A program made the position numbers and the translations under genes. The notes under the pieces were generated by a model that saw nothing but the letters and a program-made list of their open reading frames with translations, was not told the origin of the DNA and ran no database searches. DNA of 64,000 nt from Chrysophaeum taylorii. Lineage: Eukaryota > Sar > Pelagophyceae > Pelagomonadales > Pelagomonadaceae. How positions within the stretch are numbered: position 1 is the stretch's first letter; each line of letters opens with the position of its first letter. The stretch lies in assembly GCA_029834535.1 (NCBI GenBank), contig JAQMWT010000311.1:1-64000 (forward strand). The letters are read 5' to 3'. Shown here one piece after another: positions 1,578-55,113 of the stretch.

Positions 1578-4500
1578 GTGTCGTGGACGATTAGAGTTCC
1601 GGAGCCGAAGGAGCACGAGAACGACGACGACTCAACCATTTGGACCCGCTCTGATCTCGGCCGACTAGAACGAGCCAGAGCCGATATGGAAGACGATGAT
1701 GCTGCCGTCGAGCAGCTACGATATGAAGAACCGCCAAGCCGTCAGGATGAGACGAACGAGCGGAATGACGATGATGATAATGATGACGATGAAGAAGAGC
1801 ACGATACAGGTTGACGAGGAAGAAGAGCTAAACTACAACGACGGCAAGCCCACGGAGAGACCGGCGGGAGGACGATCGACAGCTCCGTCAACGCGTGCAG
1901 AACCCCGGATGCAACGAAAATGAATGAGTTCTACGAAGCTCACTTGCGGGCATTACGCGAAGAGAACGAACGCGCGCAAGAACGACTTTAAAACAAATAG
2001 GGAAGAGAACGAACGAAAAGAACGGCTACACCGGAATGAGATAAAAATAATGCGAGAGCAACTGCGTATGGCCAATGCTCGAGCAGACGCCTCCAAGATC
2101 AAGCAAGCGCGTTGACACGAAAGAGATGAATGCGTATGCCGAATCGCCCGAGGCGAGCGAACGGTCTCGAGGGAGAATTCCGAACCTCGGAGGTACCGCC
2201 GCCCACGCGAACGCGAGCGAAAGTCAGGAAGCCGCGCGACGACGACGACGAGTCGTCCGAGATGACCGAAACGTCGTTAAACTACGATCAAGAGCAATCC
2301 AAGTCGAAGGAGCTCACCCAAACCAAAATCCCCACAGAATCGAAGAATTTGACCGAAACGTCGTTAAACTACGGGTCGAAGCCGTCTACAGCTCTAACCC
2401 GGTGTCACCGTTGGTGGCACGATATGATTTGTCGTCAGCTGACACAACCCTCGGTCTTGACGACGCGCCGGAGTTATGTGTGAATCCGATTTACGAGCCC
2501 CGTGCAGCCGATGACGCCCAAAGTAAGGGACCCGCCGCTGCTACGCTCGATGCTATGAGTTTACCTCCGAACATTCAAGTGGATGGCACGTCGCCTCCAC
2601 GATCGATCGACGATGCGTCGCAGAGGATTACCTCGAATGATAAGCGCGCACCTGAGTACACACCACTCGAAAGTCACGTGCCCTTTGGTGGCCAGTTTTT
2701 GACAGATATGACGTCGGGGACGACGCGCCTTCTTTTGCAGCCCCCGACGAACCGACTGCAGACGTTTTTGCAGATGTTTTATTCCCTTTGACGATGGCAG
2801 ACAATTCGTGTGCCGACATTTTTAGTGACGAGGCGATTGCCGATATTCGAGCGATGGAGTGGATGAGAGGCCGAGTGAAACGGCCGAAAATGAATACGAA
2901 AGCGGAAGAGATGAAGAATCTTATAACGCATGAACGCCTTTGGAGCTCAGTGAAAGCCCTGGCGTATTACTCACGAACGAAGAGTTCAAAGATTTTCAGC
3001 CTGCATATGATGATGGCTACGTGATAAAGAAAGATCCCGAACATATGAGGGATGAGTATAGCTGCCGCCGGAACCGAATTTGGATGGGACGATCAGCATG
3101 GATAATAGGAAGATGAGCGTACCGACGATAAGGATACGAGCTCAATGTTTCCTGAGGAAGAAACCGCCAGAGCGGAAAGAAGTACAATTCCGACCCCGAG
3201 GCGCGGATTTATTGGCCAACCGAGATTTAATTTACGTTTGGTCGGAGTTTTGGCAAAAAGACGACGAAGGCGTCGATGTTTCGATAGACGAGACGATTGA
3301 GCCAGTTCGGATAGACTTGGGAGCACCAGTCGCCTACAGGGACGATCCAGAGGTACTAGGACCTGCCGAACTGACGCCAGAGAGAGACAAAGATAACAAG
3401 AGCCCCAGTCGAAGTTCGCGCCGGAACAGACAACGCCGATCGTGCGACGACGAATACGACGGAGGCCGACACGAATATAATTTGAGTTTTTGAGCGCAAC
3501 GCTCGCAGTTACGACCCCTTGCGGTCAACAGTTACCATTAGGAGTGACGGTGTACCCGAACACGGACACCCGCACCGACGACGCAGCCGACGCCCTTGCC
3601 GCGGCCGCATTCGAAGATCTTGCTCGCCCACCGATGGACGAGCCACCCAACGACGTGCTGACCAATCGTCGGTCTTTGGCACAGATTTATGAGCAGATGT
3701 CGAGCGATGAGCTCGAAGATTCGAGCGAGGAACTTGAAGCTCCACGATACTGGGAAGGCGATTCAGATTCGGAAGATGAAGAAGCTACACTTTGTGAACC
3801 AGTGTCCGCGATAACGTTATTTGACGAGTCGTCCACGGACGACCCACCGTTTATTTTTGATGAGGAAGCCCTCGATGCCATCGGCTTATCTTTGGACCCT
3901 CCAGAGAAGACCGCTGGCGACCGAACTGGCTGTGAGCAAGACGTGGATTTCTGCAGTGATCGCTCGTGCGCGGATTCGACTGAGGAGACGATGACCAGCG
4001 CGAGTAATGCAGATGACGATTTTACGAAAGAGTTGACGTCGGGGACGACGCCATCTTTTCCTGCGGACCCCCCCGAAACGGTTTCGGTTACTACGGATCG
4101 AGACACGGATACGCCGCCGGAAGAAAAGGATAGATTTATGAAGAAGATTAGCAGCGTTCTCAAGTGGGACGAAGACGAGCCGACGTGGAACCTGCAGGAT
4201 TGGTGGACGAAAGCTCGGAATTTCTTGCTAAGAAGCCACCAGAACAACCGCGCAGCTGCAGACTCAAAGCCGCAGCTGACACGGAACCGATCGCCGATGC
4301 TGATGAGGATCAGCAGGCGACGAATGAATTCACAGATGCATTCTGGAACGACGAAATGAATGATTTATGGGAGGGGTTGTTTGCTTCCGTGAATTACGAA
4401 GACCAGGATCCCCTACCAGCGTTTATTCCCTCGGAGATTGTCTTGGAGGAAGAGCGGAAGCCGCCAGATAAAGAGGCTGCCGCGAGCGTTATGGCGAAGA

Positions 4501-4595
4501 CGCCAACAACAGATAATACGAAAGCTCAAGCCGCGGTATCGATGCCCAACCCGGAGATGAGCGAATCAGAGCCCGATGTGCTCACACTTCGTTGA
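1578..4595 (+). pseudogene. gag-position region of G1, acidic and coiled-coil, no recognisable capsid
   Basis: About 3 kb between the leader and protease is open in pieces over several frames. Visible content: a coiled-coil-like stretch near 1924-2000 (NEFYEAHLRALREENERAQE), long Asp/Glu-rich runs (around 1750-1800 and 3700-3850), and two copies of the TETSLNY-encoding DNA motif at 2264 and 2351. I see none of the capsid signature that is plain in G2 gag, and no CCHC knuckle. The region may be a diverged gag with an acidic spacer. The fragment is broken and its function is not assigned. Confidence 0.4.
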
Positions 4596-10769: not shown

Positions 10770-10809
10770 CACCTCGCTGGGGCAGCTCGAATTCTTACCA
10801 GGGGAGTCC

Positions 10810-11379: not shown

Positions 11380-11381
11380 GG

Positions 11382-13524: not shown

Positions 13525-14166
13525 TTGATGACGTGCTTGAACTGTGGGAAGCATATTTATTACGGGCACGATGATGGGGTGTGTCCTAAGCCTGGAAATT
13601 CTGATCGGAAAGCTCGCGCTGCCCGAACGTTGAAGGCTGCAGGCTTCCCACCGACGGCAGAAGGACAGGCCCAATGTCGACAAACGGTCACGGCTAATCA
13701 AGCTGCCGTGACGCGGCGCGTTCAAGCACCATTTACGCCACCCCCACAGGTCGTCTACACTGCTGCGCAGGGCACAGGTGCCGGTCCCCAACAGGTAATC
13801 GCAGCCGCTCCGCAGCAGATGGTTCAGCAACCAGTGGTGCAGCAGCAGAGTGCATCGCGCACGCTGAGATCGGAGGACGTTGCGCAGGCACTAAACACCC
13901 TGTCGTTGCTACGACAAGCTACCCAGTCGACACAGCAGCAGGCCAACCCCAGCCAGTGCAGTGCCGGCGCCGCCTCCCAGTGGCTCGATGTGCTTGATGA
14001 AGATCAGGGCGGCCCTAGGCGATTCAATGGATGCACGGTGCAGAATGCGGCGCTGATTGACGGCAATGTGATCAGCGGAGACGACGAGGATGAGAGCCGT
14101 GGTGATGTAACACCAGAGAGCACTCCTTTTGTGATGAACCCATGGAACCGCCCTCCTTTTTGGTGA
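13525..14166 (+). CDS. G2 nucleocapsid-like segment with zinc knuckle
   Basis: 213 residues beginning with CLNCGKHIYYGHDDGVC, a CxxC-x7-H-x4-C arrangement that is a variant of the retroviral CCHC knuckle, followed by a Gln/Ala/Pro-rich tail (PQQVIAAAPQQMVQQPVVQQ). It lies between capsid and pol. Its end overlaps the start of pol by 25 bp in a different frame, the usual layout where Gypsy elements make Gag-Pol by ribosomal frameshifting. Confidence 0.6.
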   Translation: MMTCLNCGKHIYYGHDDGVCPKPGNSDRKARAARTLKAAGFPPTAEGQAQCRQTVTANQAAVTRRVQAPFTPPPQVVYTAAQGTGAGPQQVIAAAPQQMVQQPVVQQQSASRTLRSEDVAQALNTLSLLRQATQSTQQQANPSQCSAGAASQWLDVLDEDQGGPRRFNGCTVQNAALIDGNVISGDDEDESRGDVTPESTPFVMNPWNRPPFW

Positions 14167-30068: not shown

Positions 30069-30078
30069 GTAGTTAAGA

Positions 30079-34603: not shown

Positions 34604-37212
34604 ATGTCACCGCCGCCCTTGCTTCCTTCTTACAAAGACCTTTTTGCACAAGATGACCTCATTCTTGTCCCAGGTTCCAAACAACCTAACACCCGCAAGG
34701 CAACTTCTATGAAAAATATCCAAGTCCGACTGCAAGCGTCTACTATTGGTGCTTACAAAGCCGCTTGTGGCAAACTCGCCGATTTCCGCTGGGATCTTCG
34801 CCACCACTTTCTTACGTTCAAGTCTCCCGCCCTCTCCGCCCTTCATCTCAATGGTGGTATCCTCTGGTCTGCTATCTGTGCCGAGGGGGAACATGCGGTG
34901 TTAACTCGCCTTCTTCTCTCGTTGCGCACTGACTTACTTGCCCGCTACCCGCACGTCGATGGTTACTTCGCCCACGCCAAGTGCGCATCCAGCATCCCAG
35001 CTGCAACCTTTTTAACTGCTGATGGTTCACCTACGTGCCCCATTCCTCAGCCCCTTTTATCTGCGTTCACTGAACACGCAGCTGCCTTTGGCACTTCTTC
35101 CTTACAATGTGCACTTACGTACCTGGCGCCGACCAGCTTTATTGATCACAACTCATCCGAGTTTGGCGCTAATTCTGCATCTCTGGCTGACTTGGAGGAA
35201 TACCTTCTGGTCTCTACAGAGTTTATCACCCAGGTCTTACATACCGACCCTACTATCCATATTCAACTGGAATCTGCTTCTCCTACTCCTCCTACTGACG
35301 CTGTTTCCGCTTATCCCGAAGTTGCGCACACTGCCTCGACCGCAACGTCGTTAAACTATAATTCACTAGCCACTGTTGGTCCTGACGAATATAAGGTCCA
35401 AGAAGCGGACGTTTCCATTGACGAATATAAACTCAAGTGCCTCCACGGTTTGTCGCCTGAAAACAGGCACGCCTACCTCAAGGCCATCGCCAAGGAACTC
35501 AGCGACATTATACGCTTTGGCTACTTCAAACTTTCCTTACCCGACGGTGTCTCTCGTCCTATTGACAGCAAGATGGTGCTGAAGATTAAAACAGACTCTG
35601 CAGGCAAATACCTTAAGCGCGAGGCTCGCCTCGTGCTACGTGGTTTCCTAGCATCTCTTGGCGCCGATTTCGTTGGCACATTCAGCCCCATGGCCACAAT
35701 GACCACAATCCGGGTACTACTGGCTATTGCAGTACACAAGCAGTTGCCTGTCTACCATGCAGACGTCCCGAACGCCTTCGTTCAGTCTGACATAGATGCC
35801 AACGTCTATGTTCAGTTACCAGACGGCATCGAGCTTATCGACCCGGATGACGCTAAGTACAAGGGCCGACGTCTACCGAAACTGCTGAAGTCACTTTATG
35901 GACTTCGGCAATCACCATCTCTTTGGAACAAAGAGATAGACGGCTTATTCCGTAGCCTTGGCTACAAACGCCTGCATTCGGACTCTTGCCTTTATGCTCG
36001 AGTATCCGCACATGCTGAGTTCGTCGTATGCAGTCTGTCTGTAGACGACACTGTTATTGTGTCCAATGATGACCCTCTTCGTACTGAGTTACAGGATGCC
36101 CTCCACAAACGGTATGCTGTAGAGCAGTTGAACCTGTCCATACTCTCCTATGCATGCGCGTGTGTCGCACATCTGACGGTTCCATTTCTCTGGATGTGCA
36201 AGCCAAGCTGGATGAACTCTTCGCCGATCACCCAGTCTTGCAGCAACTGACCCCGCTTAAATATCCTATGTCATCGTCCTTCAAGTATAAAGATGGCACT
36301 CCCAGCTCTGAAACAGAGTTGTACATCAACTCGCACTTTGCCACCCTCCTTGGCAAGCTGGTGTTCATGCAAGTTGCCTGCAGACCTGACTTCTCGCAAG
36401 CCTTGGGCAGATGTTCGCGTGGTATGCATGCACCCACATATGTTCACGTCCAAATGCTAGAGCATTTACTTCGCTACCTCAAGAAGCCAGAAAACCGCTC
36501 ACTTCGCCTCTGGTTTCACCCTAAAGGTAATGCCATTGAAGCTCACCTTCGCACTGTCTCCGCTAATCGAATTGATCTATCCACTGTGGTTGACTACCAA
36601 CCACAGGATGTATCTACTGGACAGTTTGACCCCTTAGTTGCCATGGTTGACGCTGACAATGCCCCTTCCTTAGCACAGGAAGATAGGAAATCTACCACCG
36701 GGTTTGTCTTCTATCTTTTCAACTGCCTTATTGGTTGGAAAAGCAAACTTCAACCGATTGTCTCCTGCTCAACTCACGAAGCTGAGTTGATTGCCCTCAG
36801 TATTTGTGCTGATGAAGCTGTTTGGCTACGCAAGCTGCTGTTGGAACTCTCCTTTGTCGTCAACCCCACCTTCTACGTCAACAATGCTAATGGTGAGAAC
36901 ACCGCTGACCCTGTTGACTTCGATGACAATGACAACCCAACTGCTGAAGATATGCGCTTCATCAGAAGCCTACCTCTTTTGTCTGACAATGCTGCCGCTG
37001 TTCACACCTCTAATAACCCAGATGGGTCCTCTCGATCCAAGGCACTGTCGACCAGATGGTTTAAAATCCGTGAGTATATCTCGCTTCAGAAAATACGAGT
37101 CCATCATGTTCCCGGCAAGCTAAACGTGGCGGATGGTTTTACAAAGCCACTTCCTGCTGAGTTCTCCACCTTTCGCTCTCTACTCGGTATGCATCATGCC
37201 TCTGATAACTAG
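34604..37212 (+). CDS. Copia A1 RT and RNase H
   Basis: Two overlapping open segments (34604-36250 and 36154-37212). RT: DEYKVQEADVSIDEYK near 35380, PVYHADVPNAFVQSDID near 35750, LLKSLYGLRQSP near 35885, catalytic LSVDDTVI near 36040. RNase H: DRKSTTGFVFYLFN near 36685, SCSTHEAELIALS near 36765, SRSKALSTRWFKIREYISLQ near 37035 and ADGFTKPL near 37130, the standard Copia series. RNase H removes the RNA template after first-strand synthesis. Broken, about once. Confidence 0.85.
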
Positions 37213-37434
37213 TCTTTACAGGATTGAAGATGCCTAACGCTAGTGACCGCAACGTCGTTAAACTAGCCCTGGCCTTACCTTCTTTTGCCACAAATTTTTG
37301 TACGCGTGTGAGTGTCGCTCATGTTTTTCTTGGCACTCCCGTGGCCGCGGCATCTCCCTAGTCGGTTGAAGGACAGTCCTTTCTCGCTCTCCACGGCCGA
37401 ACCTTCCCCCAGGTTGTCGCAAAAGCAACGAACC

Positions 37435-38906
37435 ATGACGGCTACTACTGCTACCACACTGGCTGCTGCGGTTGCACCGACACCAGCCGTGCATATCTCA
37501 CCTCAGTCGCTGACGTTCCAGGACGGCCTCAGTATTGACTATGCTGCTTACGAGCGAGGAATCTCTCTCCTCGAGAACTTCCGTGTCCCTGTCACCCCAT
37601 TTCTCTCTTCTTTTATACGAGTGGAACTCACACTGCCCTATGAGTCTACCGGCTTTTCATTGTTTGTGGACCTGACCACATTCATATCCATGCGCTTACC
37701 CATTACTATACCTTGGGAAGCTGCTCCTGCTATTGCTTCTATTGGCTGCTACAGAGGCCCCAAACGCGAACGTTTCATTTTGTCATCCTTCTGTACGCAA
37801 TGCCTCAACAATCTGGGACAACCAACGTTCCTTGTCTCGACCACGTACAGTTCCAAGGCACAAACACCTCGTGAACTCCCAAAGTGCCGAGTCACCTCAA
37901 CACGGACGACCATACGAAGAATGGTCACATCCCCATTTCTGCTATTACCGTGAACATTCGCTGTGCTTGTCACAACACCGATCAGGTGCCTATACAACCT
38001 ACTGTATGTGCTCGCAATGCTACTTCCTTCCAATCCCCCCGTGATGTGCGCTCAGCTGGTCATATACGCGATACCATCATACGCACCTTGAGCATCGTAG
38101 TTTACTTATGACTCTTGTTCGAACACAGAGTCGCAAAGCTCGGGCTATGCAAGCCATCCATTCAGCATTTGATTACTACTGTTGCTCGATCGCGTGTACA
38201 ACATATTGACGACTACGCATCATCCTCTGATGATACAGAACCGCTATCACTCCGGGATGTAATGTTCGGCCACACTTATACTCAGGCAGAATATTAAGAC
38301 TTCCTCCGCCCCTTTTTTTTAACGTTGACCGAAACGTCGTTAAACTACTTACACTCCACGCTAGACGCTACTCTGGAGATATCTTCGCCATCGTTACCTA
38401 CGTCTTCTGCGTCGCTTGCCGATTTCGACGTCTTGTGTCAACAAGTCGACCAATTCCAGGAAGCTCTTCGAATCTATATTACCGAGGCTGCCATTGCTTC
38501 AATCACCTCCCTGGAGAACCGGCTCTTCCCTCCTACAGCCAACTCCCACGTGTTACTTATAACACTGTACAAGGTCACAGAGCTGTTGTCTCGCTTAACA
38601 CTCACCGCTCATGACCAACATGCTGCCAACTACTTCTCCCCGGACGATCACCTCCTTCATCTACGTGACAAGTTGCTCTCATGCTTCAGAGCACTCTGGC
38701 CGCTCTCATGTGAATCTGAAGACTCTTCTATCTTCGTTCGCCAAGTCCAACTTTTTTTTGAAAAAAAAAACCAACTGGACACCTTTCAACTAGACTCTCG
38801 TTCGCCATCCATACTGAATGCTCTACTTGCACTCACCCTTCTCTTGGCACCACATCATTCAGCTATTGGTTTTCACCACCTTGCAGCAGAAGCTGACGAC
38901 GATTGA
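37435..38906 (+). CDS. Extra coding region 3' of Copia A1 pol
   Basis: After RNase H a further coding region starts MTATTATTLAAAVAPTPAVH and continues to about 38906 in a few pieces. The first ~110 residues (SIDYAAYERGISLLENFRVP; ISMRLPITIPWEAAPAIAS) and the last piece (from MTETSLNYLHS at 38325; FQEALRIYITEAAIASITSL) are also conserved in A2. No transmembrane segment or signal peptide of envelope type is obvious and I recognise no family. The position between RNase H and the LTR is where Copia/sirevirus-type elements carry env-like ORFs. Confidence 0.5.
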
Positions 38907-39295: not shown

Positions 39296-39620
39296 TGCAG
39301 AGCATTAGCAAGCAGTGGTAAGTCACCTGGGAAACCATCCCGTCTCATCATGAACGTCTGGAAGTATTTAGTTCGGAGAATGAAAAGGTATGTCCCCTAT
39401 ATCCTCAGAACACGACAGGCGGCATCTAGAACTATACGAAAAAGGTAATGTGTATAGTGCTACATACCTCGGGACGCGCTAGACCATGATGATGAGCGTA
39501 GGCACAAATCATAGGACTATTTGATTGTGTAGAAAGGAAGAAGAAGGGTAAGGAAGAGATCACTTTCTCAACGGACGGATAAGGGGAAGAGGCAGCAGAT
39601 TTCTCTCCCCCCCCTCGAGA
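39296..39620 (-). repeat. 3' LTR and polypurine tract of A2
   Basis: The reverse complement of the family A LTR, beginning TGCAGAGCATTAGC on the plus strand. CCCCCCCCCTCGAG (39607-39620) is the reverse of the GAGGGGG tract that starts plus-strand DNA synthesis. Confidence 0.8.
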
Positions 39621-39845: not shown

Positions 39846-41171
39846 TCAATCATCGTCAGCTTCTGCTGTAAGGTGGTGAACACCAATAGCCGAATGATGT
39901 GGTGCCAAGAGAAGGGTGAGTGCAAGTAGAACATTCAGTGCGGATGGCGACAGAGAATCTAGTTGAAAGGTGTCCAGTTGGTTTTCAACAAAGAAAAGGT
40001 TGGACTTGGCGAACGAAGAGAAAGGAGTCTTCAGATTCACATGGGAGCGGACGGAATGCTCCGAAGCATGACAGCAACTTGTCACGAAGATGAAGGAGGG
40101 GGGGAGTGGTTGGTAGCATGTTGGTCATGAGCGGTGAGTGTTAAGCGAGACAACGGCTCTGTGATCTTGTACAGTGTGCAAGTAACACGTGGGTGTTGGC
40201 TGTAGGAGGGAAGAGCCGGTTCTCCAGGTAGGTGATTGAAGCAATGGCAGCCTCGGTAATATAGATTCGAAGAGTTTCCTGGAGTTGGTCGACTTGTTGG
40301 CACAAGACGTCGAAATGAAATCAGCAAGCGAAGCAGAAGGCGTAGGTAACGATGGCGAAGATATCTCCAGAGTAGCGTCTAGTGGAGTGTGAGTAGTTTA
40401 ACGACGCTTCGGTCAACGTTGAAAAAGGGGTGCAGGAAGCCTTATTGTTCTGCCTGAGCATAAGTGTGGCCGAACATTACATCCCAGAGTGATAGCGGTT
40501 CTGTATCATCAGAGAATTCTGCGTAGTCGTCAAGATGTTGTACACGCGATCGAGCAACAGTAGTAATCAAATGCTGAATGGATGGCTTGTATAGCCTGAA
40601 CTGTGCGACTCTGTGTTCGAACACGAGTCACAAGTAACCTGATCGGTGTTGTGATAATGGGGATGTGACCATTCTTCTTATGGTCGTCCGTGTTGAGGTG
40701 ACTCAGCACTTCAGTGGGGAGTTCACGAGGTGTTTGTGCCTTGGAACTGTACGTGGTCGAGACTAGGAAAGTCGGTTGTCCACGATCATTGAGGCACTGC
40801 GTAAAAAAAAAGGAAAGCGACAAAATGAAACGCTCGCGTTTGGGGCATCTGTAGCAGCCAATAGAAGCAATAGCAGGAGCAGCTTCCCAAAGTATAGTAA
40901 TGGGTAAGCGCATGGATATGAATGTGGTCAGTTCTACAAACAATGAAAAGTCAGTAGACTCATAGGTCAGTGTGAGTTCCACTCGCATAAAAGAAGAGAG
41001 AAATGGGGTGACAGGGACACGGAAGTTCTCAAGGAGAGAGATTCCTCGCTCGTAAGCAGCATAGTCAATACTGAGGCCGTCCTGGAACGTCGTCAGCGAC
41101 TGAGGTGAGATATGCACGGCTAGTGTCGGTGCAAACGCAGCAGCCAGTGTGGTAGCAGTTGTAGCAGTCAT
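39846..41171 (-). CDS. Extra coding region 3' of Copia A2 pol
   Basis: Homologue of the A1 region. The first piece starts at 41171 (MTATTATTLAAAFAPTL) and the last ends ...HHLTAEADDD at 39846. It shares the internal blocks FQDGLSIDYAAYERGISLL and LRLWFHP-independent downstream segments with A1, confirming that this is part of the element rather than a passenger of one copy. No known domain recognised. Broken, about two or three places. Confidence 0.5.
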
Positions 41172-41379
41172 GGTTCGTTGCTTTTGCGACAACCTGGGGG
41201 AAGGTTCGGCCGTGGAGAGCGAGAAAGGACTGTCCTTCGACTGACTAGGGAGATGCCGCGGCCACGGGAGTGCCAAGAAAAGACATGAGCGACACTCACA
41301 CGCGTACAAAAATTTGTGGCAAAAGAAGGTAAGGCCAGGGCTAGTTTAACGACGTTGCGGTCACTAGAGTTAGGCATCT

Positions 41380-43410
41380 TCAATCCTGTAAAGGCTTGTC
41401 GTCAGAAGCATGATGCATACCGAGTAGAGAACGAAAAGTGGAGAACTCAGCAGCAAGTGGCTTTGTAAAACCATCCGCCACGTTCAGCTTGCCGGGAACA
41501 TGATGGACTCGTATTTTCTGTAGCGATATGTACTCACGGATTTTAAACCATCTGGTCGACAGTGCCTTGGATCGAGAGGACCCATCTGGGTTATTAGAGG
41601 TGTGAACAGCGGCAGCATTGTTAGACAAAAGAGGTAGGCTTCTGATGCAGCGCATATCTTCAGCAAATGGGTTGTCATTGTCATCGAAGTCAACAGGGTC
41701 AGCGGTGTTCTCACCATTAGCATTGTTGACGTAGAAGGTGGGGTTGACGACAAAGGAGAGTTCCAACAGCAGCTTGCGTAGCCAAACAGCTTCATCAGCA
41801 CAAATACTGAGGGCAATCAACTCAGCTTCGTGAGTTGAGCAGGAGACAATCGGTTGAAGCTTGCTTTTCCAACCAATAGGGCAGTTGAAAAGATAGAAGA
41901 CAAACCCGGTGGTAGATTTCCTATCTTCCTGTGCTAAGGAAGGGGCGTTATCAGCGTCAACCATGGCAACTAAGGGGTCAAACTGTCCAGTAGATACATC
42001 CTGCGGTTGGTAGTCGACCACGTGGATAAATCAATTCGATTAGCGGAGACAGTGCGATGGTGAGCTTCAATGGCATTACCTTTAGGATGGAACCAGAGGC
42101 GAAGTGAGCGGTTTTCCGGCTTCTTGAGGTAGCGAAGCAAATGCTCTAGCATTTGGACGTGAACATACGTGGGTGCATGCATACCACGCGAACATCTGCC
42201 CAAGGCTTGCGAGAAGTCAGGTCTGCAGGCAACTTGCATGAACACCAGCTTGCCAAGGAGGGTGGCAAAGTGCGAATTGATGTACAACTCTGTTTCAGAG
42301 CTGGGAGTGCCATCTTTATACTTGAAGGACGATGACATAGGATATTTAAGCGGGGTCAGTTGCTGCAAGACTGGGTGATCAGCGAAGAGTTCATCCAGCT
42401 TGGCTTGCACATCCAGAGAAATGGAGCCGTCAGATGTGCGACACACACGCATGCCTAGGAGGGTATGGACTGGTTCAAACTGCTCTACAGCATACCGTTT
42501 GAGGAGGGCATCTTGTAATTCAGTGCGAAGAGGGTCGTCATTGGACACAATAACAATGTCGTCTACAGACAGACTGCATACGACGAACTTAGCATGTGCG
42601 GATACTCGAGCATATAGGCAAGAGTCCGAATGCAGGCGTTTGTAGCCAAGGCTACGGAAGAAGCCGTCTAGCTCCTTGCTCCAAAGGGATGGTGATTGCC
42701 GAAGTCCATAAAGTGACTTCAGCAGCTTCGGTAGACGTCGGCCCTTGTACTTAGCGTCATCGGGGTCGATAAGCTTGATGCCGTCAGGTAACTGAAGATA
42801 GACATTGGCATCGATGTCAGACTGAACGAAGGCGTTCGGGACGTCTGCATGGTAGACAGGCAATTGCTTGTATGCTGCAATAGCTAGTAGTACCCGGATT
42901 GCGGTCATGGTGGCCATGGGGCTGAAGGTACCAAAGATCGGCGCCAAGAGATGCTACGAAGCCACGTAGGACGAGGCGAGCCTTGTGCTTAGCGTATTTG
43001 CCTGCAGAGTCTGTTTTAATCTTCAGCACCATCTTGCTGTCAATAGGACGAGAGACACCGTCGGGTAAGGAAAGTTTGAAGCAGCCAAAGCGTATAATGT
43101 CGTTGAGTTCCTTGGCGATGGCCTTGAGGTAGGCGTGCCTGTTTTCAGGCGACAAACCGTGGAGGCACTTAAGTTTATATTCGTCAATGGAAACGTCCGC
43201 TTCTTGGACCTTATATTCGTCAGGACCAACAGTGGCTGGTGAATTATAGTTTAGCGACGTTGCGGTCGAGGTAGTGTGCGCAACTTCGGGATAAGTGGAA
43301 ACAGCGTCAGTAGGCGTAGTAGGGGCAGATTCCAGTTGGATATGGATAGTAGGGTCGGTACGTAAGACCTGGGTGATAAACTCTGTAGAGACCAGAAGGT
43401 ATTCCTCCAA
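41380..43410 (-). CDS. Copia A2 RT and RNase H
   Basis: Three overlapping open segments cover RT (43210 to about 42500; PVYHADVPNAFVQSDID, LSVDDIVI near 42560) and RNase H (about 42020-41400; DRKSTTGFVFYLFN, STHEAELIALS, SRSKALSTRWFK, VADGFTKPL). The sequence is very close to A1 34604-37212. Broken, about twice. Confidence 0.85.
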
Positions 43411-43653
43411 GTCAGCCAGACATGCAGATGTAGCGCCAAACTCGGATGAGCTGTAATCAATAAAGCTGGTCGGTGCCAGGTACGTAAGTGAATATTGTAA
43501 GGAAGAAGTGCCGAAGGCAGCAGCGTGTTCAGTGAACGCAGATAAAAGGGGCTGAGGAATAGGGCACGTAGGTGAACCATCAGCAGTTAAACAGGTTACA
43601 GCTGGGATGCTGGATGCGCACTTGGCGTGGGCGATGGGTAGCGGGCAAGTAAG

Positions 43654-46600
43654 TCAGTGCGCAACGGGAGAAGAAGACGAGCTAACAACGCATGTTCCCC
43701 CTCTGAGCAGATAGCAGACCAGAGGATACCACCACGGAGATGAAGGGCGGAGAGGGCGGGAGACTTGAACGTAAGAAAGTGGTGGCGAAGATCCCAGCGG
43801 GAATCGGCGAGCTTGCCACCAGCGGCTTTGTAAGCACCAATAGTCGACGCTTGTAACCGGGCTCGGATAGTTGTCATAAAAGTAAGTGGCCTTGCGAGTG
43901 TTAGGTTTTTTGGAACCTGGAACAAGAATGAGGTCATCTTGTGCAAAAAGGTCTTTGTAAGAAGGAAGCAAGGGCGGCGGTGACATAGAGCCAGATTCGT
44001 CGGCGAGAGCGTCAGAAGAGGGAGAAGAGGCCGGAGTAGGGGACGAAGAAGGAGGAGCTGAAGGAGGTGGGGAGTGCCCCCTCTGAGGATGAAAAGTCCT
44101 TGTCCCCCTCTGAATGACATGGTCTTGGATAGTGGTGTGGGGTGTGAGCGAGAAAGGCGCGGAAGGAGCGTGAGGCGGAGGAGCTAGTTCAGGATCAGGA
44201 GTAGGATGCTGCAACATGTAGAGGAATTGCAGCTTGGACGAAATACGAATTTGTCCGTTTTCAGGGTTGAGGACGACGTCAGCGAGATGGTCGACGCGTG
44301 GGGAGACGAGCGGGTTTTGCGCGTTGGCGCAACAGAGATACAGATATTTGCGGCGGCACGGTTCCCACTTGTGGTGTTCATGGGGCTCCAATAGGAGGTA
44401 ACATTCAGCGCCAAAAATCTTGAGCATATCGTGTTGGGGAGTGCTGAGTTGGTTGTAGAGTAGCTGTTGCGGACTCAGAATAGCATGATGAATGCGCTTG
44501 AGCGTGGCGTTCGGGAGAAGGTTGTAGCTTTGAACGGTGTGTATCACCGCCCATGGGAACATGATAGCGGGTTCCACGATCTTGGCGCCACGATAGTGAG
44601 CATTAAGGAGAGAACGAAGGCGAGTTGAGGAGGCGGAGGCGATGAAGCCGATGGCAGACTCAACTTCAAGGGTAAAGTGGTGCATGTACGGCGGGAAGGC
44701 AATGAGTTGAATGCCCTTATCGACGCGGTACGGGGAGGTAATGTGCTGGCTAAAGTAGGGCTTGAATGCATCGGAGTAGAGGGTGCGCATGTGCACGTTG
44801 AGTTGTGTACGACAGAAGTCATACACAAAATCCAGAGCTTGAGTGAACTCCGTGGCGTTGGTGGTGCGTGCAAAGTACACCAAGAGAAATTTCGAAATGA
44901 GTTCCTTGCAGACAGTGATATGTGTGAAGCCTCCCCATTCGGATGGGATGGTCACAAAGCCGCCGTCGCACGCCCAGACTTCACCGGCTTTGTGGGTTTG
45001 CTCAAAAGAAGGTTTGGTCGTATTGAAATGCTTGTGCGGGTGGCGCTTGTTGTGTGCGATGCAGTCGGTGCATAAGTCGCGATATGGTATGTCAGAAGCA
45101 GAGAATCCAGGGCGAGCAAGTACGTTGGGGGCCTTGGCAGCGACGTTGTCGGGGCAGTGATGCACCCGGTGAAAGCGATTAGCACGTTCTTTGGCATTGA
45201 GATATTCGGTGGATCCGTGTGCGAGGGACTTACGAGGAATTGGATGAGCGGGAATGTGCCGTTTGCGCCGAACATCGAACTTGAGTTCGGTGTCTAAGGC
45301 AGTGGAAGGCGGTGCGTCGTCATCCTGGTGCACAGCAGGATCACTTGGAGGTGCATCCTCATTATCACGAGTAGCGAGAGTATCTTCGTAGGGCGAAGAT
45401 ATATAGTTTAACGACATTTCGGTCAAGCAGTTGCTGGAAATAGACATCATAAAAGATTGTGCCAAAGACAAGGTATCTGTGCTGCACGTGGTGGAAGCTT
45501 GGTCAACGGTCACGAAGTTGGATACATAGGATTTCTTCGTCACGGCAGCAGTATGTTGGAAGGTAGGGTCCAACATAAGGGATTTAATATCGGCGACGAT
45601 GAGCGAAAGGTGCTTGTCTAGAGTGCTATACGTACCGGCAGGCAGAGCATTGCTGAGCATGTCACAGCAAAGATCATGGCGTAGAGACAATAGGAAAGAT
45701 TCCTGTTGTTTGGCGTGGTTGTTAGCACGAATCAACTCCGGTCGAGTGGGGTAGCGTATTTTCCCGTTGCGAGGGTCGAGTAAAATCATATTGGCATACC
45801 CTCGGACGGTTGGCAATGGAGCAAGCATTGACTGGATTTTAGAGCCGAGCTTGCGGTCACTTCCACGAAGGTACCCTATATAACGACTATGAGATAGGTG
45901 ATGATCTTCCAGAGCAAAAAGAGAATCCTTGTAATCGAAAGAGTTGTCGGTGGCCTTGTAGGTGAGGCAGCCAGGCATCACGAGAGAGCATCTGGACAAG
46001 AGTTTTTGTATGGCGGTGCCATAGGTGGTAGCGGAGCCAACTTGGGGAAGGGCTTGGACTATCCACAAGTAACCTATAAACGGCTCCAGATATATGGACC
46101 TGTCCCGGTCGCGGGGGATGTCGGAAGCAGTGAACGTATACGTGCTCCCAAAGGCGTTGATGGGGGTCTTTTGGTTGGTGGCGGCGTTCTCTGTGGTGAG
46201 GTTGCCGTCGGAATGGTGGCCACCAGTTAAGAAGTAGGAGTTGTGTGATGTTGATGAGGTTGTAAGTAATAACCTGTGTGACGGTTGGTTAGTTTCGAAA
46301 ACGGTTATGTTATAGGACACAGGAGTGGGTGAGTTAGTAAGTAAGCTTGCGAACACGTTATAGAGGATTGTAAAAACCTTGACGTGTATAGGATGTGTTG
46401 CATTGGGTAATGGCTCCATAGAGGAGCGTTTAAAGCACAACTGATGATAAGTACACTCGGATTGAACAGAGTGAGTACGTTGCTCGTGAGCCTGTTGTGA
46501 GTGAATGCGAAGTAGTAACATATTGAGGGATTCAAGGTCAGCCATAGTAAGATGAGCAGAACCTGTGCGAGAGTAAGGTGCAAACGTTTTAGGAACGGGT

Positions 46601-47331
46601 ATATATGGAGGATCGGGGAACACCCGGATCCAGTCTTTGGTTAGGTGGTTAGGTAGCCAAAGGCGCTTGGGAATAGCTTGTAGATCATCCACGATCTTTA
46701 GGAAGGGGCGTGGATGGAGGATGGGCCACGATGATAGTTTAATTGGTCCAGTAGAATATCTGCGGGCGACGCATATCCACCTTTCTCTAGATTGGTAGTC
46801 GCCACATAGGTAGGTCGGGAACCTATCAACAACATCGACACAGTAATCAAGGGTAGTAAAGATAAGGTTGGCCACTGTGATGTGGTCTTGATGACAGTAC
46901 TTTTTATGCGGAGGCGTCATCTCAGCCAGTAGTACCAAGGGCTGGAGTAGCTTGATGACAGACAGCATGTTGTCGAAAAGAGAATCGTCCAGCAGACTGT
47001 GTAAGTCTTCTGACTTTTTTTGTTTTAGTAAATTCCTATTTGTGCAGGGAGGAGTGATCTCAATTATATCACAATAGAATGTGCGCCTTTCCTCGGGTGA
47101 GATTAGGTGGAGATGGTTAATAAAGGCGGGGAGAGATTCAAATAATAGTACAGTAGGAAAACGGTGGCGTAACATACGAACAAGCGTATCATCAGACTCA
47201 ACAACAACTTTTACATTGATATTTAAGCCTAAGTCATTAGTGGCTTGAGACAGGAACGCCGGAGTTGACAAACCAGAACAAAGTAACATGACAGAGGGTT
47301 TGCGGAGATTGGAGTCTTGTGAGAGAAACAC
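43654..47331 (-). CDS. Copia A2 pol segment: DNMT-like domain, linker, integrase
   Basis: 1225 residues in one frame. DNMT-like motifs lie in the first ~250 residues. About 250-600 is unassigned (blocks SRTGSAHLTMADLESLNML, YFLTGGHHSDG, YLEPFIGYLWIVQAL). Integrase follows: HRVHHC and CTDC zinc ligands near 45160 and 45070, GEVWACDGGF near 44970, LYSDAFKPYF near 44780, LEVESAIGF near 44660, and KIFGAECYLLLEP near 44400, the Copia 'FGCxAYV' block. A Pro/Ser-rich stretch with KHGTDP-like variability and GAGGGGG-coding purine runs ends the frame before RT. Confidence 0.85.
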   Translation of the reverse strand: MFLSQDSNLRKPSVMLLCSGLSTPAFLSQATNDLGLNINVKVVVESDDTLVRMLRHRFPTVLLFESLPAFINHLHLISPEERRTFYCDIIEITPPCTNRNLLKQKKSEDLHSLLDDSLFDNMLSVIKLLQPLVLLAEMTPPHKKYCHQDHITVANLIFTTLDYCVDVVDRFPTYLCGDYQSRERWICVARRYSTGPIKLSSWPILHPRPFLKIVDDLQAIPKRLWLPNHLTKDWIRVFPDPPYIPVPKTFAPYSRTGSAHLTMADLESLNMLLLRIHSQQAHEQRTHSVQSECTYHQLCFKRSSMEPLPNATHPIHVKVFTILYNVFASLLTNSPTPVSYNITVFETNQPSHRLLLTTSSTSHNSYFLTGGHHSDGNLTTENAATNQKTPINAFGSTYTFTASDIPRDRDRSIYLEPFIGYLWIVQALPQVGSATTYGTAIQKLLSRCSLVMPGCLTYKATDNSFDYKDSLFALEDHHLSHSRYIGYLRGSDRKLGSKIQSMLAPLPTVRGYANMILLDPRNGKIRYPTRPELIRANNHAKQQESFLLSLRHDLCCDMLSNALPAGTYSTLDKHLSLIVADIKSLMLDPTFQHTAAVTKKSYVSNFVTVDQASTTCSTDTLSLAQSFMMSISSNCLTEMSLNYISSPYEDTLATRDNEDAPPSDPAVHQDDDAPPSTALDTELKFDVRRKRHIPAHPIPRKSLAHGSTEYLNAKERANRFHRVHHCPDNVAAKAPNVLARPGFSASDIPYRDLCTDCIAHNKRHPHKHFNTTKPSFEQTHKAGEVWACDGGFVTIPSEWGGFTHITVCKELISKFLLVYFARTTNATEFTQALDFVYDFCRTQLNVHMRTLYSDAFKPYFSQHITSPYRVDKGIQLIAFPPYMHHFTLEVESAIGFIASASSTRLRSLLNAHYRGAKIVEPAIMFPWAVIHTVQSYNLLPNATLKRIHHAILSPQQLLYNQLSTPQHDMLKIFGAECYLLLEPHEHHKWEPCRRKYLYLCCANAQNPLVSPRVDHLADVVLNPENGQIRISSKLQFLYMLQHPTPDPELAPPPHAPSAPFSLTPHTTIQDHVIQRGTRTFHPQRGHSPPPSAPPSSSPTPASSPSSDALADESGSMSPPPLLPSYKDLFAQDDLILVPGSKKPNTRKATYFYDNYPSPVTSVDYWCLQSRWWQARRFPLGSSPPLSYVQVSRPLRPSSPWWYPLVCYLLRGGTCVVSSSSSPVAH
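46700..47300 (-). other. C5-DNMT-like domain of Copia A2
   Basis: Within the open frame beginning at 47331: VMLLCSGLSTPAFLSQ (residues 14-29, motif I), VKVVVESDD (about 40-48, motif II acid), IEITPPCTNRN (about 90-100, motif IV with Pro-Cys), LLAEMTPPH (about 134-142, motif VI position) and YLCGDYQSRERWICVAR (about 174-190, motif VIII). SAHLTMADLESL further on resembles motif IX. Spacing fits a compact DNMT core. B1 has the same series with many substitutions between motifs, suggesting past constraint. Confidence 0.75.
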
Positions 47332-47346
47332 TAGGCGTGAAAGTGG

Positions 47347-50083
47347 TCAAGTTAATGGCTGTGTATTTTGCTGAACAAATTTGTTCTGTTTCCGAAGATT
47401 GAGAACCAAAGGGCGAATCCACGGTCGATCCGGTAAAACTCGTTGGAGTAGGTAATTGTAATATGCCAGTAGCTCCCTGTTTTCATGGTATCGCTTGAGG
47501 GGAAATGCAAGGGAGCGAAGTTTCAGCCGCCTGTCGCGCGCGATGTTGTAAGTGATACAAGGGAGAGCGGGTAAATTCGCTGCGACATAGTGTATGGGTA
47601 TACGTACATCTTTGTCTATGCGGCTCGTGACAACGCTGAGCTTTGGCTCAGCTCGATCGTTGAACTCGGTGGTAAGATTGGTCTGGTTCCATACGAGCAT
47701 GCTCAGGATAGCGAGATGTCGGTCATGCACTGGTTGAAGACATAAAGCGAAGTCGATCTTAACGTAACCAATTTGTGGATGATCTGGTAGGGGAATAACG
47801 ATGTTGCGTGTTAACATCATGTGTGATGCCCGTTGTTGTCCTGTTGCCGTCTGAATAACAATCGGAGCGTACTTAGAGTCCAATGGTATTATATGATTGG
47901 GTATAGCGAAATCGTAGGTGGACATCAATGAGATGTAAGCACAAGAGTAAAAATATAGGAAAGAGCAATGTGGAGGGACACTGTTTACCTTCATGTAGTT
48001 GGTGAGGAAGGCGTTTTCCGAATGTGGGCAAGTAGTGGAAAGACTAGCGGTAAAGTAATTCTTCAGCAATAACAGATTCGTTGGAATAATGATCGGTTGA
48101 ACAGGTGGTGATGGCTCGTCAGCCTCATCAGCCATGCCGTGCTTTTCGTCAAATGACGATAGGGAGGTGTGGTCGGCATCCCTTTTGGGTTCGGCTTGTG
48201 GTGGTAGATTGAGGGCAGATTGGACCTGTGAAGATAGCGAGGACAATAATGCTGGTGGTAAAGCCGAAATGGCGGAAGCGGTAAAGAGGTTAGACACAGT
48301 ATTGGAAGGATTACCCTGTGTGTTTGTAGTAGGAGGAGTTGTTGTTGGGGTGGGAGCAGTAACGACAGTATGGTGTTGTGGCTCCACGTAGTTTAACGAC
48401 TTTTCGGTCGAGGATAGATGAACGTCTACATCATAAATGATGTCTTCTGCAAACATGAGCTGTTCGTTTAGACGAAGTAAACTACTGTTGTCCTCAGTAG
48501 ATGTTGTTGACAGGATATCGGCTGATTGTAGCAAGGTCTCAAATAACTTGTTGATATTCTGTTGTAGCTGAGCCGTGGTATCATTATCTGTCACATGCTT
48601 CGTGAGTTCGCTACACTGCTCTCGTAGGGTATTTAAGGTGTGGTTAGTTCGATCTAATAGTTTCATGTTAGACCGAGAGGACCTGTCAAAAGTGCGGGGG
48701 TAAATTGGACGGTCATGGGACTGTCCGGCAGTTTTCTTGGTGACGTAAGAATCACCAGGACGATAATACGATAAATCGCTGCGAGAGAAAGGCTGGCGAG
48801 CATCATTAGAGTTACGCAAGCGTCTCGCGTTGAACGTGGAAGATGTACCTGGTTGGGACGAAGTGATGAAGGCGAGTGTGTTAGCAGTTTGAGTCAGACT
48901 TTTGTCCGATGAGTCCAAAGTATGTGTAAGGAGTAACTTTGGCTTTGGTTGAGATGATAAACCTTCGACATAGGGTTGCCAAGAAACAGGGCGTTCTAAG
49001 CGTCTTTTGTTCGACCCGTTTGATACGACATTGTAAAGGTCTAATGCGCATTCTAAAATGTAGCTTGGGTTGGTAGGGTGACACAATCGTTCAGCTTCTG
49101 GTACAGGTCGAGATGAAGATCGGGTTTCGTACATATAACACCAATCTACCCAACCACGATCATAACGGTTGTTGCTGGTATTATCGGCATAGTGCCGATG
49201 TATCTCTTCATAGATTTTTCTGCAAAGAGTGCCAAAGTCGAATTGAAGGTCAGTCTCTTCCTGGTTAAGTTGGTAAGAGATTTGCCTAAATGCTAGGACA
49301 GCTTCGATAAATACATGGACATACCAGTTAGGATTATAAACAACAGAGTTAAATTGCTGTTTCAAATAAGACACATCAGTAGTCGTAACAGACTCGTAGT
49401 GATTAAAGGCGATGAGCATAATAGCTCGAGCCTTGTTGGGTAAATAGCTTTTGTTGTATATCTCGTTGATGGCGGGCCAGGCCGCAAGTGCCGGTTTTCC
49501 AACACTTTCAAGATTGAAGTAAGTATGTAAAAAGGTAGCGTACGTGTTCTGGTAAGTGTGCCAGTCAGCTGCAGTTAATGAAAACATGGTGACCGGGGCA
49601 CGAACACGAGTGTCGAAAGCTAGTGCCTTCGGGTGCGCACGATTTAAGATTCGTTCCTCTTCTAAGAAACGAGCGTTGATTTCAGGACGTAATGCCCTGA
49701 CTTCATAGTCGTAACAGACGGTAGTTAGCTGAGCTACTTCTGCATCAGGTAAGTGGGGGAAAGCTTCGTTGGTGAAATGCCATTCCTGATACTCAGGGGG
49801 TAACTCATCGACAGTTAAACGGAGATCAGCATCCCTATCGGTCTTCCATTCCAGGAAAGCGCGATCGAGAATTTGATTCCGGAGGATTTCGTAGTCCTTG
49901 CATGACCGATTGTATGCTTCATACGAGTCGTACTCGAGGAAAGCATCGGCATGACTTGACCGTAGTAATTGCTTGATGTGCTTAATTTGCAAGGATACCT
50001 TGCGGTTCCGAAGCTGGAAGCAGCTTCAATATATCCGCACCTGTGATCGCCTTGGGTGCGGCTCGTGCTGCGTGTTCTGCCAT
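47347..50083 (-). CDS. Copia A2 gag and protease region
   Basis: An 881-residue frame (47347-49992) plus the start at 50083 (MAEHAARAAP). The gag part matches A0 and A1. A coiled-coil-like segment lies near 48480-48660 (LREQCSELTKHVTDNDTTAQ). The motif-encoded STEKSLNYVE at 48389-48409 marks the border to a Pro/Thr-rich linker. The segment about 47560-47900 aligns with the B1 protease region (HPQIGYVKIDFAL against HPNVGYVKLDVAL; LSMLVWNQTNL). Broken, about one break near the start. Confidence 0.65.
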
Positions 50084-50932: not shown

Positions 50933-50957
50933 AACATTACACCAGAGTTCCATTATT

Positions 50958-52230: not shown

Positions 52231-52335
52231 AAATCTCCTCCTGATTATGAACAGCATCCACCTCCCGCACCTTCACCCGACATTCCCTTCTCTGTTCACA
52301 GCACCCCCAATGATGCGGCGCAGAGGGGGAATGCT

Positions 52336-54737
52336 ATGCCCACCAACACTGCCCAGGAGAGGGGGACTCCTTCTTCTCATCTCCATGCTCCCTCTCCCGC
52401 TCCCGCATGTGCTCCAGCTGCTTCTGCACCCGCTACTTCCACCACCACACCTAAATCTGAAGTGTCTCCCGACACTCTGCCATTTTTACCATCTTATCGG
52501 GCTCTCTATTCCCAGGATGTCCTCCGTCTCACCCGTGGTCCTCATCACCCTCAGCCTCGTCGCAAAACCAATCTCAAGGATGCTCTTACTCGTATTGCTT
52601 CGCCTACAGTTACCGCTTATAAACAAGCCGGTGGTGCGCTTGCCGACTTCGAGTATGACCTCTCCAAGCAGTACATAACGTTCTGCGACCCCACCCTCCA
52701 CTCCCTTCATCTTGCTCATGGCATCCACTGGACGGCTATACCTCCAGAGGGGGAATTTACACCATCCCTTCATCACCATGTGCACCAAGCGATCTCACAG
52801 TCCTCTTCAGTTATGTGTCATAGGAGCCATAGCCACCCATCGCCTGATACTCCTCATGTTCACTTCTGCGACGACGTCAACCTTGCAGACTTTCACCTTC
52901 CTCAGGCTCTCGTTCATTTAATTTCTGAACATGCTCACGCCTTTCAAGTTCCTCCCGCTCAATATGTTTATGCTTTGTTCACGCCCCACTCCATTTTGGA
53001 TCATAATGACGCTTCTTATGGTGCCTCCGAGCCTCATCTCTCCGCCATCGAAGACTATATCACCGTGCAATCGCATTACATTGAGGCCCACCTTGGTGAT
53101 GCTCCTCTACTAATTGTTCAACTCGTCGAATATCCCGAACATGCTCATCTGCACGATAATATCGCTTCTTATTCGATTACTCATCTGACGACGACTCATG
53201 ACCCTAGCACGGTTGGTTCGGACGACGACAAGACTCAAGCCAAGGATATCAAAATTGATGAATATGAGTTGACCTGCCTCAAAGGTCTCTCGGACGCTGA
53301 TCGCAAAGCTTATGTCGCTGCCATCTCTAAAGAGATCTTTGACATTGTTAAATTTGGCTGCTTTAAACTAGGGCTGCTAATGGTCAACTCAAAACCTATT
53401 GACACCCGTCTCGTCCTACGGATAAAAACCAACGCTGCTGGTCAGTACATCAAACATAAAGCACGCCTTGTCCTACGAGGATTCTTAGCCTCTCTGGGCA
53501 CCGATTTCTTCAACACATTCAGTCCTATGGCACAGCTTACCGGCATCCGTTGTGTTTTGGCGCTAGCAGCTCACCTGCGACTTCCGTTGCGACTTCCCGT
53601 CTACCATGTCGACGTCCCTAACGCTTTTGTTCAAGCTCTCATCGATTCTCGTGTCGACGTCAAACTGCCTCAAAGCATTTACCTTCTCGATCCTGAAGAT
53701 ACTAAATACCAAGGTCGCCGTCTTCCAAAGCTACTTAAATCTATGGATTGCGTCAGAGCCCTGCCCTTTGGAATCAAACCATAAACGGCTTCTTTGATTC
53801 ATTTCGAACAGACACATGTATTTACGCTAAAGTCCAAGCTGACGCTACATTTCTAATTTGCACGCTCTCAGTAGACGACGTCGTCATTACTTGTACTTCG
53901 GAAACTCTACGTCGTGAGTTCCAGCACGCTCTGAAAAAGGAATACTCAGTCGACACCTTCGAGGAAGTCCATACTCTCTTAGGCATGCGCATAACGCGTA
54001 CAACTGATGGTTCTATATCACTGGACTGTCAGGCTAAACTTGATGCATTGTTCGAAGAGTACCCCATTTTAATGCAGTTGCGTCCCACTTCCACACCGAT
54101 GTCACCATCAGCCACGTATATAACTGGAGAGCCATCTTCTGATATGGACAAGTTCATCCTTCATACTTTCCCTACGCTACTCGGCAAGCTCACGTTTGTT
54201 CAATTGGCCTGTCGTCCTGATTTATCCCAAAGCCTTAGTCGTTGCTCTCGAGGAATGCATAATCCAGCATTTCTACATGTTCAAGTACTAACAGGAACGC
54301 TCCGCTACTTGCGCAAGCCCGAAAATCGTAATCTTCGCCTTTGGTACTACTCTGGTTCTTCCGCTCTAATGGACCATCTTCGACTTCTTATCGGTAATCG
54401 TACTGACATGGCTACCATGTTGGACTACACTAAAGAACAAGCTAATTCAGGTAATTTTGATCCATTAGTCGCATTCGTTGATGCCGATAATGCACCCTCT
54501 TATGAACAAGACCGCAAATCTACGACCGGTTACGCTATCTTTCTGTTTGGTTCTCTCATCACTTTGAAGTCCAAGTTGCAACCTATTACAGCTACTTCTA
54601 TGCACGAAAGTGAACTCATAGCCCTTAATATGTGCGCCGATGATGTGGTCTGGTTACGCAAATTGCTAACGGAAATGGCATTCGCTATAAACCTCACTTC
54701 TATCTCCGCCAACCTCCAGGGAAAGACTTGCTATTAG
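52336..54737 (+). CDS. Copia B2 linker, RT and RNase H
   Basis: Two open segments (52336-53784, 53748-54737). RT: SKPIDTRLVLRIKTNAAGQ, VYHVDVPNAFVQ, LPKLLKS and catalytic LSVDDVVI near 53865. RNase H: DRKSTTGYAIFLFGSLI near 54510, TSMHESELIALNMCADDVVW near 54595; its tail continues to about 55010. The series is like that of family A but clearly diverged. Broken, about twice. Confidence 0.8.
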
Positions 54738-55113
54738 ACTATGATGCTCACGACAATCCCCTCCCGTCGGACATGTCGTTCATACGTAACAGCCCTATAC
54801 TTGGAGATTCTGCTTCTGCTATTCATCTATCTAATAATCCTGACAGTGCGACTGAGGCTAAAGCTATCAGCACACGTTGGTTCCGTATGCGCGACTACGT
54901 ATAGTTAAAACGCATCCGTCTACATCATGTTTCCGGCTCCCATAATATCGCCGATGCATTTACCCTTTGGAGCTCCACTCTTCAGCAGATTTCGCACGTT
55001 ACTCGGCTTACAACAACCCATAGCTCAACAAGATGGTTAATCATTACCCTCCATTATGTCCGAAATGACTTTAAACTAACCCTGCCGTGCACAGGATACT
55101 GGCTTGCTAAAAT

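Follow-up and report, generated by a model that had tools for sequence, protein, structure and literature searches.

A coremin-like RNA motif on LTR retrotransposons of Chrysophaeum taylorii that also occurs in phages and plasmids

A short motif recurs in unrelated long terminal repeat (LTR) retrotransposons of the pelagophyte Chrysophaeum taylorii, as seen in the first 64,000 nucleotides of contig JAQMWT010000311.1 (assembly GCA_029834535.1), the stretch that we call the window. The unit of the motif is 21 nt, GACCGNAAHGTCGYTAAACTA, and consists of GAC followed by an 18-nt core; through base pairing, GAC and GTC can enclose a loop of six bases. The stem is paired, the orientation is sense-only, and the motif is present in Gypsy G1 as well as in the Copia families A and B. 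From this pattern of sequence change, the motif very likely acts as an RNA element. Moreover, it resembles coremin, the exonuclease-resistant RNA (xrRNA) of RNA viruses that is also called xrRNA_C, and we consider it likely that the copies are coremin-type elements which block exonucleases on the sense RNA of the retrotransposons. The recurrence of the motif had been recorded in a preliminary description of the window, and this observation is confirmed. The interpretation given there is partly supported: the resemblance to coremin-type RNA and the compensatory nature of the copy at 55058 lie beyond the options that it had listed.

A paired stem on the sense strand of retrotransposons

All 11 copies of the preliminary description are present at the positions and on the strands given there: at up to three mismatches to the 18-nt core, the window holds 11 matches as compared to a mean of 0.05 in 100 shuffled sequences, none of which reached 11. 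The length had been given as 20-21 bp; the copies read in context define 21 nt, with the consensus GACCG-N-AA-H-GTCG-Y-TAAACTA of fixed and free positions. A genome-wide count, which had been proposed as a check, gave 1929 core matches at the same threshold in the assembly (70.8 Mb, 697 contigs) versus 18 for the reversed pattern. The 21-nt consensus itself is present in 1281 exact copies, and 1300 copies are found if a YGNNAN loop is permitted; the canonical coremin with a 4-nt loop is rare (3 copies in the assembly). One to five copies are found per element copy. In the window, five are carried by Copia A2, three by Copia A1, two by Gypsy G1 and one by Copia B2. They are listed here with the open reading frame (ORF) that follows pol in Copia A2 and with the hairpins (hp1, formed by the motif itself; hp2, located 3' of it):

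2264..2284, plus strand: motif copy in ORF1 of Gypsy G1, the first of two that are 87 nt apart; loop CGAAAC
2351..2371, plus strand: second motif copy of the G1 pair, in ORF1; loop CGAAAC
2372..2401, plus strand: candidate hp2 directly 3' of the copy at 2351; pairing probability 0.79-0.88 on the 5' side
35338..35358, plus strand: motif copy in pol of Copia A1, 5' of the reverse transcriptase; loop CGCAAC
37245..37265, plus strand: motif copy in the non-coding gap 5' of the 3' ORF of Copia A1, 32 nt past the pol stop; loop CGCAAC
38327..38347, plus strand: motif copy near the 3' end of Copia A1; loop CGAAAC
40394..40414, minus strand: motif copy near the 3' end of Copia A2; loop CGAAGC, in which the fifth base departs from the YGNNAD rule
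40533..41345, minus strand: 3' ORF of Copia A2 downstream of the copy at 41342, given from stop to stop; no Pfam match
41342..41362, minus strand: motif copy in the non-coding gap 5' of the 3' ORF of Copia A2, 17 nt past the pol stop; loop CGCAAC
43247..43267, minus strand: motif copy in the Copia A2 ORF, 5' of the reverse transcriptase; loop CGCAAC; C for T in the spacer
45381..45401, minus strand: hp2 with a perfect 9-bp stem, 2 nt past the copy at 45404; a homologous copy is present in locus L014
45404..45424, minus strand: motif copy in ORF2 of Copia A2, 5' of a weak integrase match; loop CGAAAT
48389..48409, minus strand: motif copy in ORF1 of Copia A2; loop CGAAAA; hp1 probability 0.9, followed by a hairpin
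55058..55078, plus strand: decayed motif copy in Copia B2, in the gap between pol and the 3' ORFs; loop CGAAAT; compensatory stem GTC..GAC, with a single change where stem base and spacer meet

The copies at 2264, 2351, 35338, 43247, 45404 and 48389 lie inside ORFs. Those at 37245 and 41342 are located beyond the pol frame, as had been noted before, at the distances listed above, which were computed from the reading frames. The identity of 2264, 2351 and 38327 also holds; it extends over 23 nt (T + 21 + C) rather than 22.

One indication of a role at the RNA level comes from the stem. In the assembly, 1281 copies have GAC..GTC, 29 have the compensatory GTC..GAC and 5 have a broken stem (4 + 1), with 0 each for the reversed controls. 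Exchange of the second pair, the outer G-C, was found in none of the assembly copies, although the exchanged form is present in viral contigs. The flipped stem GTC..GAC occupies the gap between pol and the 3' ORF in Copia family B at 7 of 8 fetched loci, whereas family A has GAC..GTC at this place (tblastn with the window proteins): the same gap thus carries the same stem with one pair flipped. Where this was measured, in L201 and L202, the flipped copy lies about 40 nt past the end of the pol homology; the eighth fetched locus, L207, had no homology to the window proteins in tblastn. The copy at 55058 belongs to this cluster of family B. It had been described as weaker, and it is indeed decayed but not merely weak: two of its departures from the motif fall on opposite sides of a single stem pair, which makes it the compensatory form, and one further change affects the base of the stem/spacer.

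Base pairs are also exchanged in viral contigs, which were scanned with one stem pair freed at a time; the counts refer to the matches listed. The middle pair is T-A in 92, A-T in 35 and G-C in 1 of at least 128 copies, the next pair G-C in 115 and C-G in 6 of at least 121, and the loop-closing pair C-G in 115 and G-C in 16 of at least 131, and no broken pair is seen among these matches at any of the positions. Removal of similar flanks left 74 non-redundant viral contexts among the matches listed, with T-A in 47, A-T in 26 and G-C in 1 at the middle pair and with U.G in 36, C-G in 29 and a mismatch in 9 at the outer pair, which is accordingly paired in 65 of the 74. These counts and those of the assembly show that the 4-bp stem of hp1 is kept through base pairing, as is the case for coremin.

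The orientation of the copies points in the same direction. Among the sampled loci L001-L020 and L201-L208, 46 of 49 exact copies have element homology no more than 700 nt away and lie on its coding strand, and none is antisense; the other three (L002:9677, L019:3877 and L207:585) have no element homology within this distance. All sampled copies with identifiable surroundings are in retrotransposons; the domain matches of the carrier elements are RVT_2, or RVT_1, RNase H and integrase. A cis-acting DNA or RNA signal had been among the options of the preliminary description, and it is the RNA half of this option that we retain because of the compensatory stem changes and the sense-only orientation. 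The motif is neither the property of one family nor the result of a local event: the G1 pair is found again at six other sampled loci (L004, L005, L008, L010, L012 and L016; one of the two copies is altered in L008 and L010), and Copia A and B are carriers as well.

Some features of the elements themselves are worth recording. The Gypsy element at 14142-20453 (plus strand) encodes a polyprotein of 2103 amino acids that matches a C-5 DNA methylase (PF00145, E 1.6e-6, residues 519-601) 5' of the reverse transcriptase; no copy of the motif was found in it when the window was scanned with up to three mismatches. Copia A2 can be read from 42820 to 50025 (minus strand) as about 2400 codons in one frame, broken by single stops only (47347-47349 and 43654-43656). 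The ORFs that follow pol in Copia A and B (40533-41345, minus strand; 55114-55869 and 55870-56937, plus strand) have no Pfam match above cut-off, and related copies of them are present at sampled loci. At 39109-39606, LTR-like stretches of A1 and A2 meet head to head, so that the elements are in opposite orientation with short inverted repeats between them. Among the pol relatives found, the nearest, at 52% identity, is encoded by an MMETSP transcript. The beta-tubulin of the assembly appears to be of the stramenopile kind.

Likeness to coremin

As described in the relevant passages of PMC10520033, coremin begins with a 4-bp hairpin whose loop is YGAD or YGNNAD; a spacer follows, and then a hairpin that is conserved in structure only. 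It stalls Xrn1 and scanning ribosomes, and it has been reported in plant, fungal and marine RNA viruses, at intergenic and some coding sites among others (same passages). With the coremin of beny-, cucumo- and other viruses (PMC10520033, PMC5869530, both cited in part), the motif shares the 4-bp hp1, the spacer (G)UUAAACUA and, except for the last base in many copies, a loop of the YGNNAD type. The loops CGAAAU, CGAAAA, CGCAAU and CGGAAA, for which resistance to Xrn1 is reported in the cited part of PMC10520033, occur in both, and in both the sites are intergenic gaps, 3' regions and some coding sequence. The spacer GUUAAACUA(C) was part of our search pattern, so its presence is given by construction; one of its positions is Y, and the base directly after it is free to vary. 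The first five positions of the YGNNAD loop fit nearly all copies (1281 CGNAAH among 1300 YGNNAN). The last loop base in the 74 viral contexts is T in 48, C in 17, A in 9 and G in none among the matches listed, from scans that permitted G. This absence of G agrees with the weakened resistance of CGAAAG in vitro: this loop is partly resistant, and its authors give as the reason an extra pair that makes a GNRA tetraloop (PMC10520033, same part).

There are also differences. The carriers are LTR retrotransposons and double-stranded DNA phages and plasmids here and RNA viruses there; up to five copies are present in one element, C is frequent as the last loop base, and about half of the eukaryotic contexts lack an adjacent hp2. 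Other xrRNAs, i. e. those of flaviviruses and the tombusvirus-like xrRNA_LT, have in common with the motif the proposed mechanical block of 5'->3' exonucleases; they are, however, larger, have different folds with a pseudoknot-closed ring, and show no sequence relation that we could see. The xrRNA structure of PMC12397905 is that of ST9a RNA, as cited in the part of PMC12412911 that refers to it. No coremin in retrotransposons or phages was found in the open literature, a scope outside of which subscription papers and bioRxiv lie, and an earlier report is possible. The same literature yielded no such RNA motif for Ty1/copia and Gypsy LTR retrotransposons, which are the carriers here, and no match to the 18-mer core string; for the letter strings of stem and spacer only PMC10520033, judged by the listing, was relevant among 5.39 million open papers. 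The words retrotransposon, transposon, phage and bacteria do not occur in PMC10520033. Rfam 15 gave no match at the gathering score in the window and, in L004, L011, L021 and L022, one sub-threshold match, which lies in L004 off the motif.

The folding of the downstream sequence gives a mixed picture. Clear second hairpins follow the copies at 45404, 48389 and 2351. In eukaryotic contexts (n=16), the folding energy of the next 30 nt is below that of controls (p 0.002), and the corresponding values are p 0.028 for 45 nt and p 0.32 for 60 nt. The next 45 nt of viral contexts are also more stable (p 0.009, n=73), and bacterial contexts (n=34) show no excess and are weaker than controls at 30 nt. 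This stability test was made with three window sizes after a strict test for hp2, and it is the more favourable of the two.

Several observations weigh against a coremin-type function. (i) The loop ends in C (CGNAAC) and is thus outside the YGNNAD rule in 10 of 14 non-redundant eukaryotic contexts, as it is in the 17 viral ones mentioned above, and the part of PMC10520033 that deals with loop variants reports that CGAAAC is not resistant in the context of beet necrotic yellow vein virus (BNYVV). Two natural chrysovirus copies of coremin also have a loop-final C (PMC10520033, cited part). (ii) The second hairpin is required in coremin as tested there (PMC10520033, cited part), whereas a perfect hairpin at most 3 nt from the spacer is present in 8 of 16 eukaryotic contexts and missing in the other 8. 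The strict test against controls shows a trend only for these contexts (p 0.075), and perfect hairpins within 3 nt are not in excess over controls in viral contexts and are in deficit in bacterial ones. (iii) From the energy of secondary-structure folding alone, the probability of hp1 exceeds 0.4 in only 4 of the 11 window copies, so that tertiary contacts would be needed to support the fold. (iv) The motif is absent from Gypsy G2 and, in Copia B, from the ORF sites; it is thus not essential to all elements, and ribosomes would cross the copies that are located inside ORFs. (v) The sampled loci had been selected for containing the motif, and this biases the conservation figures given below upward.

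Phages, plasmids and bacterial genomes

The exact form GTCCGNAAHGACGTTAAACTA is present in 53 stretches from a collection of 84,980 bacterial and archaeal species. By record title, 32 of them are from Bacillota, 10 from phytoplasma/Acholeplasmataceae, 10 from one Arthrospira genome and 1 from Actinomycetales. At E<0.1, the annotated phage records are those of Enterococcus, Lactobacillus and Synechococcus phages, with weaker, uninspected rows for Stenotrophomonas, Erwinia and Caulobacter phages, and the plasmid records are from Enterococcus, Lactococcus, a Mollicutes bacterium and Novosphingobium. None of 5426 Escherichia coli genomes has a match over at least 80% of the query; seven have a match of 20 of the 21 positions, and the one that was inspected has an altered spacer. 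The bacterial groups named first have RNase J, an enzyme that E. coli is not known to possess. Probably, the same fold is used by phages, plasmids and prophages against bacterial RNase J. A precedent concerns an unrelated RNA: a flaviviral xrRNA halts RNase J1 in vitro (PMC5760640, in the part cited).

Phage copies are often located directly 5' of a ribosome-binding site and start codon, and the next downstream gene encodes the head scaffold protein (phrog_172) in the two phages tested (L216 and L022). In the cyanophage S-CRM01, the copy has a U-A outer pair and sits between tRNA genes. In the phage contigs L217, L040, L046, L104 and L118 the motif adjoins tRNA or tRNA-like sequence, which is annotated only in L217. 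The ten copies of Arthrospira sp. PCC 9108 (L161, L162, L164, L168, L174, L176, L177, L185, L188 and L200) come from one genome and are each found just 5' of an ORF, the start of which is nearly identical in all of them. Phytoplasma genomes have several copies each (Onion yellows: L148, L151, L169, L187, L190 and L193; others: L155, L175, L186 and L189); many of these are followed by a terminator-like hairpin and a T run, perhaps as part of a mobile unit.

Alternative explanations and the proposed role

It is conceivable, if unlikely, that the fold serves translation by stalling scanning or elongating ribosomes or by regulating initiation at the next ORF. The stalling of scanning ribosomes by xrRNA_C in vitro (PMC10520033, cited part) and the position of many phage copies just 5' of a ribosome-binding site would fit this idea, but copies are also found near the 3' end of elements, past the last pol stop, inside ORFs and, in the cyanophage, between tRNA genes. 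In vitro, the loss of Xrn1 stalling is largely accompanied by that of ribosome stalling, and the two readings therefore overlap. With a similarly low probability, a protein of the element or the host binds the hairpin, which would then be a signal, for instance for packaging, export or stability. Many sense-only copies per RNA, common to unrelated elements, could be explained in this way, and the p14 protein of BNYVV is reported to bind coremin (PMC13431473, in the part that concerns p14). However, no obvious binding protein is common to phages, bacteria and a eukaryote, and the rules for loop and spacer agree with those of an RNA that needs no protein cofactor.

The remaining explanations fare far worse. 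Shared ancestry without function, or gene conversion between elements, is very improbable even though the G1 copies and 38327 are identical over 23 nt: in 12 pairs of equivalent ORF sites, 18-21 of the 21 motif positions are kept at a flank identity of 0.42-0.87 (figures subject to the upward bias mentioned above), the stem carries compensating changes, and the motif is also present in phages. When non-equivalent and non-coding sites are included, 17-21 positions are kept in 43 of 44 pairs and 14 in the remaining one, which is made up of two decayed copies. Selection for the peptide TETSLNY in the element proteins, with the DNA merely following, has still less in its favour. The peptide is read in the same frame at 2264, 2351, 35338, 45404 and 48389, as well as at 43247, but the non-coding copies at 37245, 41342 and 38327 are equally conserved, and the compensatory GTC..GAC copies alter the peptide; that protein selection alone does not suffice, as had been argued before, is thus borne out. 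Moreover, 82 of about 100 places with the peptide pattern, counted by eye among the matches listed, use identical codons, and third codon positions in the 12 pairs are fixed in the motif (70 of 72 identical) as compared to 229 of 468 in the flanks. A signal at the DNA level is as implausible as selection for the peptide: the two or three CpGs per copy had led to the suggestion of a methyltransferase target, but no copy is present in the very element that matches the methylase, and the sense-only placement together with the pair-preserving changes around a variable loop favours RNA over a transcription-factor or other DNA-binding site or a hotspot of integration or recombination. Least credible of all is a ribosomal frameshift at the heptamer GUUAAAC, which is in the required frame in coding copies, whereas several copies are non-coding and the overlap of the pol frames in A2 (42820-42953) holds none. 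On these grounds, the peptide motif, the frameshift signal, the DNA/methylation site and gene conversion were rejected.

A block to exonucleases requires an enzyme to be blocked, and the assembly contains three XRN_N matches (best E 4.2e-83), i. e. a host exonuclease of the XRN type; a PDB search with the ORF at 118-1845 of L210, which is not confirmed as the XRN_N frame, gave no match. In the coremin-type mechanism that we propose, the element would start with hp1, in which four base pairs close a CGNAAH hexaloop, and continue with the fixed spacer (G)YUAAACUA; roughly half of the contexts would add hp2. Each copy would mechanically block 5'->3' exonucleases of the XRN family. The degradation of retroelement RNA that has been decapped or cut internally would then end at the next block. 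At the copy in the gap behind pol, a stable 3' fragment with the 3' ORF would remain that could be a subgenomic mRNA or a decoy RNA, and the copy at the 3' end would leave a short non-coding RNA comparable to ncRNA3 of BNYVV.

It is tempting to go one step further, even though we hold this wider proposal only tentatively: one RNA fold may be a roadblock used by RNA viruses, by LTR retrotransposons against XRN, and by phages, plasmids and prophages against RNase J, having arisen by convergence or exchange, and where it is repeated along the RNA of retrotransposons, decay itself may yield stable 3' RNAs in the manner of a ladder, one of which would serve the 3' ORF. Coremin is known from plant, fungal and marine RNA viruses; our analysis suggests that the coremin-type motif in retrotransposons and phages is new. 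The published loop rule is challenged by the many natural copies found here whose loop has a final C. If the proposal is true, RNA 5' ends are predicted just upstream of the motif, and they would depend on XRN or RNase J. Blocking of exonucleases would then be a general device of mobile elements, with about 1300 copies in one eukaryotic genome and covarying copies in phages, and genetic parasites of very different kinds may thus have a common way of protecting their messages.

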